In this document: in pieces, positions 58,833 to 62,624 of the stretch
How the letters are laid out: the number at the start of each line of letters is the position of its first letter
Numbering within the stretch: the first letter of the stretch is position 1
NCBI RefSeq assembly: GCF_021390595.1
Contig: NZ_JAJEJR010000001.1
Span: 496,001 to 560,000, forward strand
Length of the DNA: 64,000 bases
Direction of reading: 5' to 3'
DNA from: Paraburkholderia sp. HP33-1
GTDB lineage: Bacteria; Pseudomonadota; Gammaproteobacteria; Burkholderiales; Burkholderiaceae
Made by a program: the position numbers and the translations under genes
The notes under the pieces: model-generated
The model's input: only the letters and a program-made list of their open reading frames with translations
The model's database searches: none
Told to the model about the DNA's origin: nothing

Positions 58833-59165
58833 TCAACCTACGGCGAGCGTCACCGGCTTGCCGATGCGGCTCAACATTTCGACGAGCGTGTCGATCGTGA
58901 ACTTGCTGGTTTTCTTGTTAACGACGTCGGACACGCGAGGGCGCGACACCATCAGAATTTCGGCCGCCTCCGCCTGCTTCAGATGATGCTGTTCGATCCA
59001 CGTGGACAGCTCGGTCATCAGCTGCTCCTTGAGCAGCCGCGTGTCGTTGATCTGCTTTTGCGACGCCGCGTGAAGGCGCTTCGCCTCCTCGGCGGAAAAA
59101 CCGAGTTCGAGGAACACGTTCGCGCCGGCTCGCGTTACGTGACGAATGTTCGTGTCGATCGTCAT
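58833..59165 (-). CDS. HigA-type HTH antitoxin
   Basis: 110 residues. The C-terminal part is an XRE helix-turn-helix (about 55-100; QAEAAEILMVSRPRVSDVVNKK). The N-terminal half (about 20-50) is helical and is probably the toxin-binding part. Its start overlaps the toxin stop by four bases (ATGA), so the order is toxin first, as in higBA. Such antitoxins repress their own operon; a matching palindrome lies before the toxin gene. Confidence 0.85.
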   Translation of the reverse strand: MTIDTNIRHVTRAGANVFLELGFSAEEAKRLHAASQKQINDTRLLKEQLMTELSTWIEQHHLKQAEAAEILMVSRPRVSDVVNKKTSKFTIDTLVEMLSRIGKPVTLAVG

Positions 59166-59506
59166 GATTCGATGGTCCTGTAATGGGTGATGGCGCGGTA
59201 GCGCGCTTCGGCAATTTTTCTGTCGAGCAGTCCGAGCTTCTGCGTTTTCTTCTGAAAGCAATGCAGCACGTACAGCGCTTCGGCGTATTTCGCGACATAC
59301 ATCACGCGAAAAATGCCGTCTTCGTCTCTGATGCGAATTTCGCGCGTTCCCGCGCCGATGGAGTCGAACGGTTTCCAGTCGTCGGGGTCGAGTCCCGACT
59401 GAATCTTGTGAAGCTGAAACCCGGCCAGACGACGCGCTTCATTGGGGAAAGCGAGCAAATCACGGTAGCTGGAGCCCAGCCAGCGAATTTCTTTTTCCTG
59501 CTCCAT
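59162..59506 (-). CDS. RelE/HigB-type toxin (Gp49-like, DUF891)
   Basis: 114 residues with the family motifs EIRWLGSSYRDLLAFP near the N-terminus and IRDEDGIFRVMYVAKYAEALYVLHCFQKKTQK in the middle (quoted as FRVMYVAKYAEALYVLHCFQ). Relatives are ribosome-dependent mRNA interferases. The ATG at 59506 has GAGGTG just upstream; a GTG two codons earlier is possible. It is first in a two-gene operon with the HigA-type antitoxin. Confidence 0.85.
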   Translation of the reverse strand: MEQEKEIRWLGSSYRDLLAFPNEARRLAGFQLHKIQSGLDPDDWKPFDSIGAGTREIRIRDEDGIFRVMYVAKYAEALYVLHCFQKKTQKLGLLDRKIAEARYRAITHYRTIES

Positions 59507-59517
59507 CGCCACCTCAT

Positions 59518-59708: not shown

Positions 59709-60782
59709 TCAGTTGCCGCTGCCGCGCGCGATGCGGCGCTGCCTGACCGCGTCGGCGAGGCCTTCGAGCACGGCGACGCTTTCGTCCCAGCCGATGCACG
59801 CATCGGTAATGCTCTGGCCATACGTGAGCTCGCAGCCTTCCTGCAGATCCTGACGGCCTGCGACGAGGTGCGACTCCACCATCACGCCGACGATCCGCTC
59901 GTCACCCGCGGCAATCTGACGGCCGATGTCTGCGCACACCGGAATCTGGTTCTCGTGCTTCTTCGAGCTGTTCGCGTGGCTCGCGTCGATCATCAGACGC
60001 GCGGCGAGACCCGCCTTGCCGATGTCCGCGCACGCCGCGTTGACGCTGTCGGCGTCGTAGTTCGGCGTTTTGCCGCCACGCAGGATCACGTGGCAGTCCT
60101 CATTACCCGCGGTCGAGACGATCGCCGAGTGGCCGCCCTTCGTGACCGACAGGAAATGGTGCGGCTGCGAGGCGGCCTTGATCGCATCGACGGCGATCTT
60201 CACGTTGCCGTCCGTGCCGTTCTTGAAGCCGACCGGGCATGACAGTCCCGACGCCAGTTCGCGGTGCACCTGCGACTCCGTCGTGCGCGCGCCGATCGCA
60301 CCCCACGAGATCAGATCCGCGATGTACTGCGGGCTGATCATGTCGAGGTACTCGGTACCGGCCGGCAGGCCGAGTTCGTTAATGCGCAGCAGCAGCTCGC
60401 GCGCGGTGCGAAGACCTTCGTTGATCTTGAAGCTGTTGTCCATGTGCGGATCGTTGATGAGGCCCTTCCAGCCCACCGTCGTGCGCGGCTTTTCGAAGTA
60501 CACGCGCATCACGACCTCGAGTTCGCCGGCGAAGCGCTTGCGCTGCTCGATCAGACGGCCCGCATATTCGATTGCGGCCTTCGGATCGTGGATCGAGCAC
60601 GGGCCGATCACGACGATCAGACGGTCGTCCATGCCGTGCAGAATGCGATGCATCGCGGTGCGCGAGTCGTAGATCACGTTGGACGCCGTCTCGTCGCAGG
60701 GAAACTCGCGGATCAGGTGAGCGGGCGGCGTGAGTTCCTTCAATTCGCGGATGCGGACATCGTCGGTATTGTGCGGGGGCAT
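59709..60782 (-). CDS. aroG: 3-deoxy-7-phosphoheptulonate (DAHP) synthase
   Basis: 357-residue class I (AroF/G/H-type) enzyme joining phosphoenolpyruvate and erythrose-4-phosphate, the first step of the shikimate pathway. Motifs include VIGPCSIHDPKAAIEYA, MRVYFEKPRTTVGWKGLINDP (shortened to FEKPRTTVGWKG), ARTTESQVHRELASGLSCPVGFKNGTDG (shortened to GLSCPVGFKNGTDG) and MIDASHANSSKKHENQ. AGGAG precedes the ATG. Which amino acid inhibits it cannot be read. The leader carries an attenuator reading Phe, Tyr and Trp codons. Confidence 0.95.
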   Translation of the reverse strand: MPPHNTDDVRIRELKELTPPAHLIREFPCDETASNVIYDSRTAMHRILHGMDDRLIVVIGPCSIHDPKAAIEYAGRLIEQRKRFAGELEVVMRVYFEKPRTTVGWKGLINDPHMDNSFKINEGLRTARELLLRINELGLPAGTEYLDMISPQYIADLISWGAIGARTTESQVHRELASGLSCPVGFKNGTDGNVKIAVDAIKAASQPHHFLSVTKGGHSAIVSTAGNEDCHVILRGGKTPNYDADSVNAACADIGKAGLAARLMIDASHANSSKKHENQIPVCADIGRQIAAGDERIVGVMVESHLVAGRQDLQEGCELTYGQSITDACIGWDESVAVLEGLADAVRQRRIARGSGN

Positions 60783-60883
60783 GTGGTTCTCCTGAGTCGG
60801 TTCGTAGCGTGTTCGCGCGGGCAGCGACGATCAAAAAATAGTCAACGACAAAATGTCAGATAGGTGTCGAAAAGCGTGAGGCG

Positions 60884-60915
60884 AAAAAAAACCGCCAGGC
60901 TGGCTGGCGGTTTTT
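60884..60915 (-). terminator. Attenuator terminator in the aroG leader
   Basis: On the minus strand AAAAACCGCCAG (60904-60915) pairs with CTGGCGGTTTTT (60887-60898) around CCAGC; the T-run continues to eight. It ends about 100 bases before the aroG ATG, on the same strand, with a promoter and leader peptide upstream, so it is an attenuator rather than the end of a gene. Confidence 0.85.
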
Positions 60916-61007
60916 CGGGAATTCTCGGTGTCCTGCGTGCACTAACACCCCTCTCGATCCGCCAGCGGTCTGAGATACCAAAAAAAGTAAAAATAAAACT
61001 TGGCGGA
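60903..61007 (-). promoter_or_regulatory. Alternating pairing segments of the aroG attenuator
   Basis: Segment 1, TCCGCCA (61001-61007), is in codons 2-4 of the leader. Segment 2, GCTGGCGGA (60958-60966), is in codons Pro-Leu-Ala-Asp. Segment 3, CCGCCAGC (60903-60910), is the 5' arm of the terminator. Segment 2 can pair perfectly with either 1 or 3, and 3 can pair with 4 (terminator). Confidence 0.8.
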
Positions 61008-61010
61008 CAT
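60942..61010 (-). CDS. aroG leader peptide (attenuator sensor)
   Basis: A 22-codon frame: MSAKFYFYFFWYLRPL followed by ADREGC and TAG. Codons 5-12 are TTT TAT TTT TAC TTT TTT TGG (7 codons) and TAT, eight aromatic residues in a row covering Phe, Tyr and Trp. Stalling there when aromatic aminoacyl-tRNA is scarce would free segment 2 to disrupt the terminator. No strong Shine-Dalgarno precedes the ATG, which is the main weakness. Confidence 0.8.
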   Translation of the reverse strand: MSAKFYFYFFWYLRPLADREGC

Positions 61011-61053
61011 GGCGAAGTGAAATGCGTCGCTGGTCAAAAAAGGGTGAGTGACT

Positions 61054-61082
61054 TTATAACCCGGCACAGGCTCGGTTGACAA
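61054..61082 (-). promoter_or_regulatory. Promoter of the aroG leader
   Basis: Minus-strand TTGTCA (61077-61082), 17-base spacer, TTATAA (61054-61059). This is close to the sigma-70 consensus and predicts a start around 61047, about 37 bases before the leader-peptide ATG. Confidence 0.7.
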
Positions 61083-61102
61083 GCCAGGACGTCGAAAAAT
61101 GC

Positions 61103-61144
61103 GGAAAACCCGCACGCTTCGCGCTTTGCGTGCGCGAAGCGTGC
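61103..61144 (-). terminator. Intrinsic terminator of tldD
   Basis: Perfect 13-base stem GCACGCTTCGCGC (61112-61124)/GCGCGAAGCGTGC (61132-61144), seven-base loop, then GGGTTTTCC on the minus strand, 14 bases past the tldD stop. It insulates tldD from the aroG promoter. Confidence 0.8.
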
Positions 61145-61157
61145 ATTCATCTCGAAA

Positions 61158-62624
61158 TCAGGCCGTGCCGCCGACCGTCATGCGTTCGATGCGCAGCGTC
61201 GGCTGACCGACGCCCACCGGCACGCTCTGGCCTTCCTTGCCGCACACGCCGACGCCCGAATCAAGCTTCATGTCGTTGCCGATCATCGTGACGTACTTCA
61301 GCGATTCCGGGCCGCTGCCGATCAGCGTCGCGCCTTTGACCGGGTACGTGATCTTGCCGTTTTCGATCATGTAAGCCTCAGAAGCCGAGAACACGAACTT
61401 GCCGTTGGTGATGTCGACCTGACCGCCGCCGAAGTTCACTGCATACAGGCCGTTCTTCACCGACTCGAGAATCTCCTGCGGATCCTTGTCGCCGTTCAGC
61501 ATGTACGTGTTGGTCATGCGCGGCATCGGCAGCGCCGCGTACGATTCGCGCCGCGCGTTGCCGGTGATCGGCATCTTCATCAGACGCGCGTTCAGCGAGT
61601 CCTGGATGTAGCCCTTCAGGATGCCGTCCTCGATCAGCGTCGTGCACTGGGTCGGGTTGCCTTCGTCGTCGATATTGAGCGAACCGCGGCGGTTCGGCAG
61701 CGTGCCGTCGTCGACCACGGTGACGCCCTTCGCGGCGACCTGCTCGCCGATGCGTCCCGCGAACGCCGACGACCCCTTGCGGTTGAAGTCACCTTCCAGC
61801 CCGTGGCCGATCGCCTCGTGCAGCAGCACGCCGGGCCAGCCCGGGCCGAGCACGACGGTCATCGCCCCGGCCGGCGCCGGTCGCGCGTCGAGATTGACGA
61901 GTGCGGCGTGCACCGCGTCGTCGACGTAGCGCGACAGCACTTCGTCGGTGAAGTAGCCGTAGTCGAAGCGCCCGCCGCCGCCGCCGCTGCCGATTTCGCG
62001 GCGGCCGTTCTGCTCGGCGATGACCGTCACCGAGACGCGCACGAGCGGGCGGATGTCGGCCGCGAAGCCGCCGTCGCTGCGAGCGACCAGCACCACGTCG
62101 TATTCGCCGGCGAGGCCCGCCATCACCTGCTGGATGCGCGGATCGCGGCCGCGCGCCATCTGCTCGATGCGCTCGAGCAGCTTGACCTTTGCGGTTGCGT
62201 CGAGCGAATGGAGCGGGTCGGAGGGCAGGTACAGATCGCGCCCGGCGATGCCGGTCAGCGACGACGCCACCTTGATCTTCTGCTTGCCGCCGCCTGCCTT
62301 GGCGATCGCGCGCGTGGCGATGGCCGCCTGGCGGATCGCTTCGGGCGACAGGTCGTCCGAGTAGGCGAACGCGGTGCGGTCGCCCGACACGGCGCGCACG
62401 CCGACGCCCTGATCGATGCTGAAGCTGCCCGACTTCACGATGCCTTCCTCGAGACTCCACGCTTCGCTGCGGGTGGCCTGGAAGTAGAGGTCTGCGTAGT
62501 CGACGCGGTGCGTGAAGATTTCGGCGAGCGTGCGCGTGAGCAGCGATTCGTCGAGACCATAGGGCGTGAGAAGGATGTCCTTGGCGGCGGCGAGATTACG
62601 GATACCGGGTTCGATGATGTTCAT
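61158..62624 (-). CDS. tldD: Metalloprotease TldD
   Basis: 488-residue catalytic subunit of the TldD/TldE (PmbA) protease, which trims unfolded peptides and modified-peptide precursors. The zinc motif LLHEAIGHGLEGDFNRKG (HExxxH) is intact. LNIDDEGNPTQCTTLIEDG and FVFSASEAYMIENGKITYPVKGA (shortened here to EAYMIENGKITYPVKGA) are typical. tldE is not in the window. The nitrilase-family gene and yhdP lie upstream, as in E. coli and many relatives. Confidence 0.95.
   Translation of the reverse strand: MNIIEPGIRNLAAAKDILLTPYGLDESLLTRTLAEIFTHRVDYADLYFQATRSEAWSLEEGIVKSGSFSIDQGVGVRAVSGDRTAFAYSDDLSPEAIRQAAIATRAIAKAGGGKQKIKVASSLTGIAGRDLYLPSDPLHSLDATAKVKLLERIEQMARGRDPRIQQVMAGLAGEYDVVLVARSDGGFAADIRPLVRVSVTVIAEQNGRREIGSGGGGGRFDYGYFTDEVLSRYVDDAVHAALVNLDARPAPAGAMTVVLGPGWPGVLLHEAIGHGLEGDFNRKGSSAFAGRIGEQVAAKGVTVVDDGTLPNRRGSLNIDDEGNPTQCTTLIEDGILKGYIQDSLNARLMKMPITGNARRESYAALPMPRMTNTYMLNGDKDPQEILESVKNGLYAVNFGGGQVDITNGKFVFSASEAYMIENGKITYPVKGATLIGSGPESLKYVTMIGNDMKLDSGVGVCGKEGQSVPVGVGQPTLRIERMTVGGTA

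Follow-up and report, generated by a model that had tools for sequence, protein, structure and literature searches.

A putative ribosome-mediated transcription attenuator with a mixed aromatic codon run upstream of aroG in Burkholderiales

Does the region between tldD and aroG in Paraburkholderia sp. HP33-1 encode a transcription attenuator, and if it does, which aromatic amino acids would it read? The window analysed here is a stretch of 64,000 nucleotides from one of the four contigs of this 7.35-Mb genome. The gene product was identified as AroG by the NCBIfam model NF006723 (600.6 bits; cut-off, 568), and comparison of AroG places the genome nearest, among named relatives, to a Burkholderia sp. 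and Paraburkholderia species (96%). An earlier note on this DNA had described four elements ahead of the gene: a promoter (TTGTCA-17-TTATAA), a 22-codon frame in which codons 5–12 specify a run of aromatic residues, a single segment perfectly complementary both to TCCGCCA and to the 5' arm of a terminator, and a terminator with a 12-base stem and eight T about 100 bases before the aroG ATG. Re-reading of the minus strand recovered all of them, and the coordinates are collected in Table 1. Segment 2, GCTGGCGGA, is complementary to TCCGCCA in codons 2–4 and to the terminator arm CCGCCAGC; the terminator stem pairs 60904–60915 with 60887–60898, and the eight T occupy 60884–60891, 101 nt from the ATG at 60782.

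Table 1. Features of the aroG leader region, in their order along the minus strand
Feature	Position	Strand	Basis or remarks
tldD, upstream neighbour, outside the switch	61158–62624	minus	NF008006
13-bp perfect hairpin then GGGTTTT, directly behind tldD, outside the switch	61112–61144	minus	fold −28.4 kcal/mol
Putative promoter, −35 box TTGTCA	61077–61082	minus	re-read; TTGTCA or TTGCCA at the equivalent place in eight rows
Putative promoter, −10 box TTATAA/TATAAA	61053–61059 (TTATAA, 61054–61059)	minus	17-nt spacer from −35
Segment 1, outer arm, in 5' UTR	61013–61041	minus	outer-stem swap 0/10000; fold
Leader peptide ORF, 22 codons, MSAKFYFYFFWYLRPLADREGC plus stop	60942–61010	minus	ATG 61008–61010; stop 60942–60944
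Segment 1, inner arm, TCCGCCA, codons 2–4	61001–61007	minus	pairs with segment 2; inner-stem swap 277/10000
Control codons 5–12, Phe-Tyr-Phe-Tyr-Phe-Phe-Trp-Tyr (FYFYFFWY)	60975–60998	minus	parsimony changes by codon position
Segment 2, GCTGGCGGA, within leader ORF; partner, segment 1 or 3	60958–60966	minus	2:3 swap 3/5000; 97.9% of cells paired
Outer 1:2 stem, 3' side, beyond segment 2	60921–60952	minus	window outer-stem duplex; fold
Predicted intrinsic terminator, segments 3:4, 12-bp stem, 5-nt loop, eight T	60884–60915	minus	99.3% of cells paired
Segment 3, CCGCCAGC; partner, segment 2 or 4	60903–60910	minus	re-read sequence; alignment; swap set
aroG, DAHP synthase, shikimate-pathway entry, presumed regulated gene	59709–60782	minus	NF006723/TIGR00034

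The fold of the 169-nt leader is better than that of 200 out of 200 shuffles (z −3.09). TATAAA is found 20–75 nt 5' of the leader ATG in 53 of 53 loci (the window and L032–L083), a count made without a shuffle control, and in 42 of these the distance is 40–45 nt. A simple consensus scan reported neither a promoter nor a terminator at the aroG leader, and the hairpin at 61112–61144 is likewise absent from its listing. In our reading, the misses at the leader arise because the rules of the scan admit neither a second hexamer ending in a letter other than T nor a stem into which the T run is taken up; the negative result stands all the same.

A short frame over a U-rich stretch might arise by chance, and its conservation was therefore compared with that in shuffled sequence. 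The ORF rule used here calls for an ATG frame of 10–60 codons with at least five F/Y/W in eight residues, 10–400 nt upstream of aroG. All 29 genus loci, representing 29 of the 57 other genomes, pass this rule, against 1.49% of their dinucleotide shuffles. At the level of the order, 26 of 89 loci pass (shuffles, 0.30%) and 63 fail; these are 89 of the 96 aroG matches other than the genome's own, which came from 92 of 160 genomes, seven having been left out. Among the best 29 such matches in other orders of the class, a single locus passes (shuffles, 0.34%). The reverse strand gives no pass in the genus, order (0/89) or class sets. Moreover, in 80 named Burkholderiales loci, which were collected through the AroG match and not through the leader, an ATG frame with at least five aromatic residues in eight followed by the segment-2 core is present in 79. 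The sole exception is L088, from Candidatus Vallotia, whose genome is reduced and whose leader frame ends after MLAKFYFIF; Candidatus Pandoraea novymonadis (L109) retains the leader frame. In L088, segment 2 has changed, and a terminator is still present, though a weaker one (−10.7 kcal/mol). The conservation of the aromatic run in relatives, on which the earlier note had made its proposal depend, is thus borne out. The comparison of the genus and order loci with shuffles, together with the codon-position changes described below, rules out a chance ORF, and on this comparative evidence we consider that chance is excluded as the source of the aromatic frame at aroG.

Structural comparisons were made on a set of 110 loci consisting of the window, the 80 named loci, L211 from another order of the class, and 28 loci hand-picked from the 89 of the order. 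These 28 comprise 25 of the 26 that pass the ORF rule (L171 was dropped), L126 and L137, which have GTG starts, and L184, which has a weaker run. Removal of L088 and L109, for which the script chose the wrong ORF, left 108, and the 45 dissimilar ones among them served as representatives.

The aromatic run evolves as translated codons. Parsimony on the aroG tree places 3, 5 and 60 changes at the first, second and third codon positions, respectively, of a six-codon core, a count that covers 101 of 110 tips (the nine omitted being seven with a different core pattern plus L088 and L109) and that leans towards conserved cores because its 29 genus rows were found by the string FYF at codons 5–7. All but 2 of the 60 third-position changes are synonymous exchanges of T and C, and four of the five second-position changes sit in the sixth core codon, where Tyr occurs besides Phe. 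Change that is so nearly purely synonymous implies that the codons have been kept for the amino acid they specify. Since the leader start has no Shine–Dalgarno (SD) sequence, it is this codon evolution that points to translation. An SD-like 4-mer at −17 to −4 is found in none of 59 leaders as against all 59 aroG genes examined in equal windows, the rows being those whose aroG match starts at residue 1. Three of the 45 representatives have such a 4-mer at the leader start, and the corresponding region of the window (61014–61027) has none; measured against base composition, the frequency (3/44, with 4.8 predicted) amounts to no depletion.

The nearest gene upstream on the same strand, tldD, ends about 240 nt before the aroG-proximal hairpin, as it would if that hairpin did no more than end tldD and the short frame had arisen by chance in U-rich sequence. 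However, tldD has a 13-bp hairpin followed by GGGTTTT of its own, which is likely to be its terminator, so that the terminator before aroG is not needed for ending tldD. In addition, the promoter conserved in 53 of 53 loci lies between tldD and the hairpin, the U-rich stretch varies by T–C exchange at third positions, and segment 2 and the terminator arm match one another in the swap test presented below. The intervening promoter and tldD's own hairpin lead us to reject the simple tldD terminator, which we hold to be extremely improbable, in favour of an element belonging to aroG.

In three loci, L041, L042 and L061, the frame shifts at the end of the Phe run and the segment-2 DNA is nevertheless retained, which shows the tail of the leader to be conserved as RNA and the run as codons. 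As judged from their sequences, these loci are a natural separation of the codon constraint from the RNA constraint. Translated tails indicate that the frame also differs after the Phe run in the genus loci L018, L021, L025, L026 and L028–L031. The three shifted loci bear on a further possibility, that the terminated leader RNA or the hydrophobic peptide additionally acts in trans, for which the trp leader of Sinorhizobium is a reported precedent (PMC7298713, in excerpt). In its favour, conservation of the peptide is strong, and termination would yield a discrete RNA of about 160 nt. The C-terminal half of the peptide frame, however, is kept in these loci as RNA and not as peptide, and we think an additional role in trans unlikely.

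For an attenuator acting in cis, the alternative RNA partners should be fitted to one another within each leader. This was examined by a swap test, in which a segment's own partner is compared with partners exchanged between loci. The sets used for swapping and for the ribosome masking described below were chosen for having both a run and a terminator. In the 45 representatives, among which the relatedness of rows is reduced but not removed, own partners give −25.96 kcal/mol for 1:2 as against −24.15 kcal/mol for swapped ones, with none of 5000 permutations as good, and −19.18 as against −18.00 kcal/mol for 2:3, with 3 of 5000 as good. The control pairing 1:3 shows no preference for the own partner (1269 of 5000 as good). 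The signal in 1:2 is strong for the outer stem, formed by the 5' UTR with the region past segment 2 (0/10000), whose sequence varies between families; the inner stem alone gives a weak result (277/10000). The alternative partners thus fit one another.

Beyond the segment-2 core, at 60948–60957, lies a purine-rich, SD-like stretch (GAGAGGGG; in many relatives, GGAGAGGG). SD-like 4-mers occur after this core in 40 of 44 leaders, with 29.4 expected after shuffling; the stretch may be no more than the 3' strand of the outer 1:2 stem, or it may keep the ribosome near the stop codon.

The helices were also compared in an alignment, A2, of 36 Burkholderiaceae-type leaders (the window and 35 of the 80 named loci). 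The terminator is paired in 99.3% of cells, has two compensated pairs and gives a covariation score above those of all 500 column shuffles. For 2:3, 97.9% of cells are paired, a level reached by 6 of 500 column shuffles; its covariation score is no better than that of shuffles (92/500) and it has no compensated pairs. The inner 1:2 helix is paired in 90.9% of cells, which is no better than shuffles (149/500), again with no compensated pairs. Covariation of the segments, which the earlier note had put forward as a check, is therefore seen in the terminator and in neither the inner 1:2 nor the 2:3 helix. Single changes in segment 3 are expected to be costly because it must match both segment 2 and segment 4. 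When the 2:3 and inner 1:2 helices are slid along A2, there is far less pairing. In 4 of 43 representatives, three letters beside the core have changed jointly, reading C-G-C in place of the usual T-A-T.

The effect of ribosome position was explored by folding RNA cut before segment 4, with a ribosome footprint from −14 to +16 around the P site masked. With pairs spanning the ribosome barred, the mean probability of 2:3 pairing, P(2:3), over 45 leaders is 0.97 when the A site lies three to five codons before the last aromatic codon, 0.91 at one codon before it and 0.76 at it, falling to 0.56 and 0.38 at one and two codons past the run and to 0.16 at the stop. With spanning pairs allowed, the values at −3, −1, 0, +1 and +2 codons are 0.85, 0.58, 0.36, 0.24 and 0.17, and that at the stop is 0.47. 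The fall-off implies that a stalled ribosome starts to cover segment 2 at about the end of the aromatic run, and the distance from the run end to the GGCGG core is 8–17 nt in 41 of 43 representatives. In the window without a ribosome, 1:2 dominates (0.98, as against 0.07 for 2:3), and codons 10–12 switch the RNA only when pairing across the stalled ribosome is barred. Over the 45 leaders at equilibrium without a ribosome, the mean P(2:3) is 0.49, with values below 0.5 in only 24; basal termination in the other leaders must then rest on the order of folding.

By its sequence, the region has the parts expected of an attenuator: a short leader ORF with a run of codons for end products of the pathway, a predicted intrinsic terminator between this leader and aroG, a putative antiterminator 2:3 mutually exclusive with that terminator, and a 1:2 hairpin that would protect against antitermination, albeit with an inner stem that is weak on its own. 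From the conservation of the leader, the synonymous change in the run, the swaps and the masked folding, we conclude that it is very probably a ribosome-mediated transcription attenuator of aroG, present in many families of the Burkholderiales. The same lines of evidence uphold the 1:2, 2:3, 3:4 logic proposed in the earlier note.

The course of transcription start, stalling, termination and amino-acid response that we infer is as follows. Transcription would start at the conserved promoter, near 61047, and a ribosome would translate the leader while RNA polymerase moves ahead. With ample charged aromatic tRNAs, the ribosome would reach the stop codon and cover segment 2, or leave so that 1:2 pairs; 3:4 would then form the terminator and the RNA would end at about 60884. 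If charged tRNA-Phe or tRNA-Tyr were short, or tRNA-Trp where a Trp codon exists, the ribosome would stall in codons 5–12 and block 1:2, the free segment 2 would take segment 3, and aroG would be read.

Which amino acids are read is a separate question, and the earlier note had proposed a joint sensor of Phe, Tyr and Trp. Among the 45 representatives, the run contains Phe in all 45 and Tyr in 41 (4 have no Y), but Trp, which is found in 25 and absent from 20, is not constant. Phe and Tyr are likely to be the main inputs. Trp is plausibly a recurrent, weaker third input. That this species senses it is less certain, since several lineages lack Trp in the run and its place is where the switch model is weakest: the Trp of the window is codon 11, near the run end, where the model hinges on the assumption made about spanning pairs.

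The same attenuator might accordingly be a sensor of Phe and Tyr only, in which a Trp codon is a tolerated aromatic and no input. This would agree with the 20 representatives devoid of Trp, with the presence of Ser, Gly or Ala at the Trp site of several loci from Cupriavidus and Pandoraea (and of Gly in the genus locus L007), with the switching of window codons 10–12 only when spanning pairs are barred, and with the separate Trp-rich leader frame of trpE in the same genome. Trp is usually the rarest residue in proteins. When runs are defined by F and Y alone, however (41 distinct cores from 55 leaders, with 173 F, 82 Y and 23 W), the most frequent of the other residues is W (23 of 73), followed by A (12), G (10) and S (9), and the mean P(2:3) at 28 Trp codons is 0.91 without spanning pairs and 0.58 with them. 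A sensor restricted to Phe and Tyr is a real possibility, to which we give somewhat less than an even chance.

Elsewhere in the genome, trpE (L231:1065–1139) is preceded by a 24-codon frame ending GAWPWRRWSR, which is probably trpE's own Trp leader. Aromatic leaders were looked for at the second aroG copy and at pheA of this genome and none was seen; the ORF ahead of pheA we take to be serC. Directly 3' of aroG, at 58833–59512 on the minus strand, are genes for a Gp49-like protein (PF05973) and then an HTH_37 protein (PF13744), a pair that we presume to resemble a toxin–antitoxin module of the HigB/HigA type.

The range of the element was surveyed with a covariance model built from A2 with the inner 1:2 and 3:4 helices. 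The window locus scores 161.5 bits and the next best place in the same genome 27.3 bits, so that the covariance search gives no second strong copy there. In 200 genomes of the order, 69 (its own included) match at E ≤ 0.01. The best 30 matches, its own included, are all upstream of an aroG homologue and carry 12 family labels; an automatic scan found an aromatic leader in 29 of them, and for the 30th (L242) it picked the same wrong ORF as for L109, the leader of which was read by hand. Among matches below the best 30, nine (G115, G213, G147, G151, G167, G143, G075, G184 and G180) are placed by their coordinates just upstream of an aroG match, and many of the lower-ranked ones fit the terminator part only. 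As the U-rich run and the terminator are both part of the model, independent evidence comes solely from the position before aroG. Outside the order, L211 has a leader of the same style, ARFYRWYYFPKPPAEEGVRAF, before aroG, which would reflect either horizontal transfer or an older origin.

An Rfam scan of 60000–62000 gave no match on the leader strand; up to E 1, it returned two matches, each of which falls within aroG on the opposite strand and scores below the gathering threshold. With no match to a curated covariance model on the leader strand, the known Rfam leader families (Phe, Trp and others) are ruled out. The extended, structured 1:2 stem could also suit an RNA that binds an amino acid or a protein directly, as a riboswitch or a protein-dependent attenuator in which the ORF is secondary. 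Against this stand the lack of an Rfam match on the leader strand, the evolution of the run as codons and the differences in outer-stem sequence between families, and we judge direct binding very unlikely by comparison with ribosome-mediated attenuation.

Attenuation through a leader peptide is textbook knowledge for trp, pheA, his, thr, ilv and leu, and the trp leader (trpL) follows the same 1:2, 2:3, 3:4 logic as the aroG leader. In E. coli trpL, the Trp codons lie within segment 1 and the stop precedes segment 2, whereas in the aroG leader segment 1 flanks the codons and the stop comes after segment 2. Relative to the textbook leaders, the aroG leader thus has its control codons in the 1:2 loop, a translated segment 2 and no Shine–Dalgarno sequence. 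In multivalent leaders such as those of ilvGMEDA and thrABC, a single leader responds to several amino acids of a common pathway; these leaders have branched-chain or Thr/Ile codons and precede other genes, whereas the codons of the aroG leader are aromatic. The Phe leader of pheA and pheST in gammaproteobacteria resembles the aroG leader in having a Phe-run peptide, a terminator, a competing antiterminator and a gene of the aromatic pathway. It differs in that the aroG leader targets DAHP synthase with mixed Phe/Tyr/Trp codons, has segment 2 inside the ORF and has its control codons in the 1:2 loop. The control of aroF, aroG and aroH by TyrR and TrpR concerns the same decision on pathway entry; these are DNA-binding repressors, whereas the aroG leader element would be an RNA switch.

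Attenuation of pheA and trp in gammaproteobacteria is covered in PMC5343134, and that of pheST in PMC1262725 (both in excerpt). The former, a regulon study of 2016, reconstructed how TyrR and TrpR regulate aromatic synthesis in gammaproteobacterial lineages, and the excerpt shows no counterpart for the Burkholderiales. We found no earlier description of the aroG leader of Burkholderiales in the open literature, a scope outside which most subscription papers fall, nor did a term search find it in the accessible portions of PMC2965389, PMC1262725, PMC4603805, PMC2864571, PMC7563307, PMC10175445 and PMC5343134. A motif named Burkholderiales-1, marked ambiguous in the accessible part of PMC2864571, may be identical with the aroG leader element.

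The mechanism is of a known kind; what sets the aroG leader apart is the gene that it targets, its mixed codon run, its geometry and how widely it occurs within the order. In its fullest form, our proposal is of an old attenuator of the Burkholderiales, spread over 12 families and found once outside the order, through which DAHP synthase would answer a shortage of any aromatic amino acid as an OR gate weighted Phe > Tyr > Trp. It would have a geometry of its own, with the codon run as loop of the protector hairpin, a translated segment 2 and a start lacking a Shine–Dalgarno sequence, and it would assume the task that falls to TyrR and TrpR in enteric bacteria. We regard this full proposal as evenly poised between right and wrong. 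An RNA switch at the entry enzyme would fill a regulatory gap in a large group to which Burkholderia, Paraburkholderia, Caballeronia, Cupriavidus and Ralstonia belong. The diverged natural leaders allow comparison of three-way competition between RNA segments, of run length and of ribosome position, and the element may prove useful for making chassis such as Cupriavidus necator overproduce aromatics.
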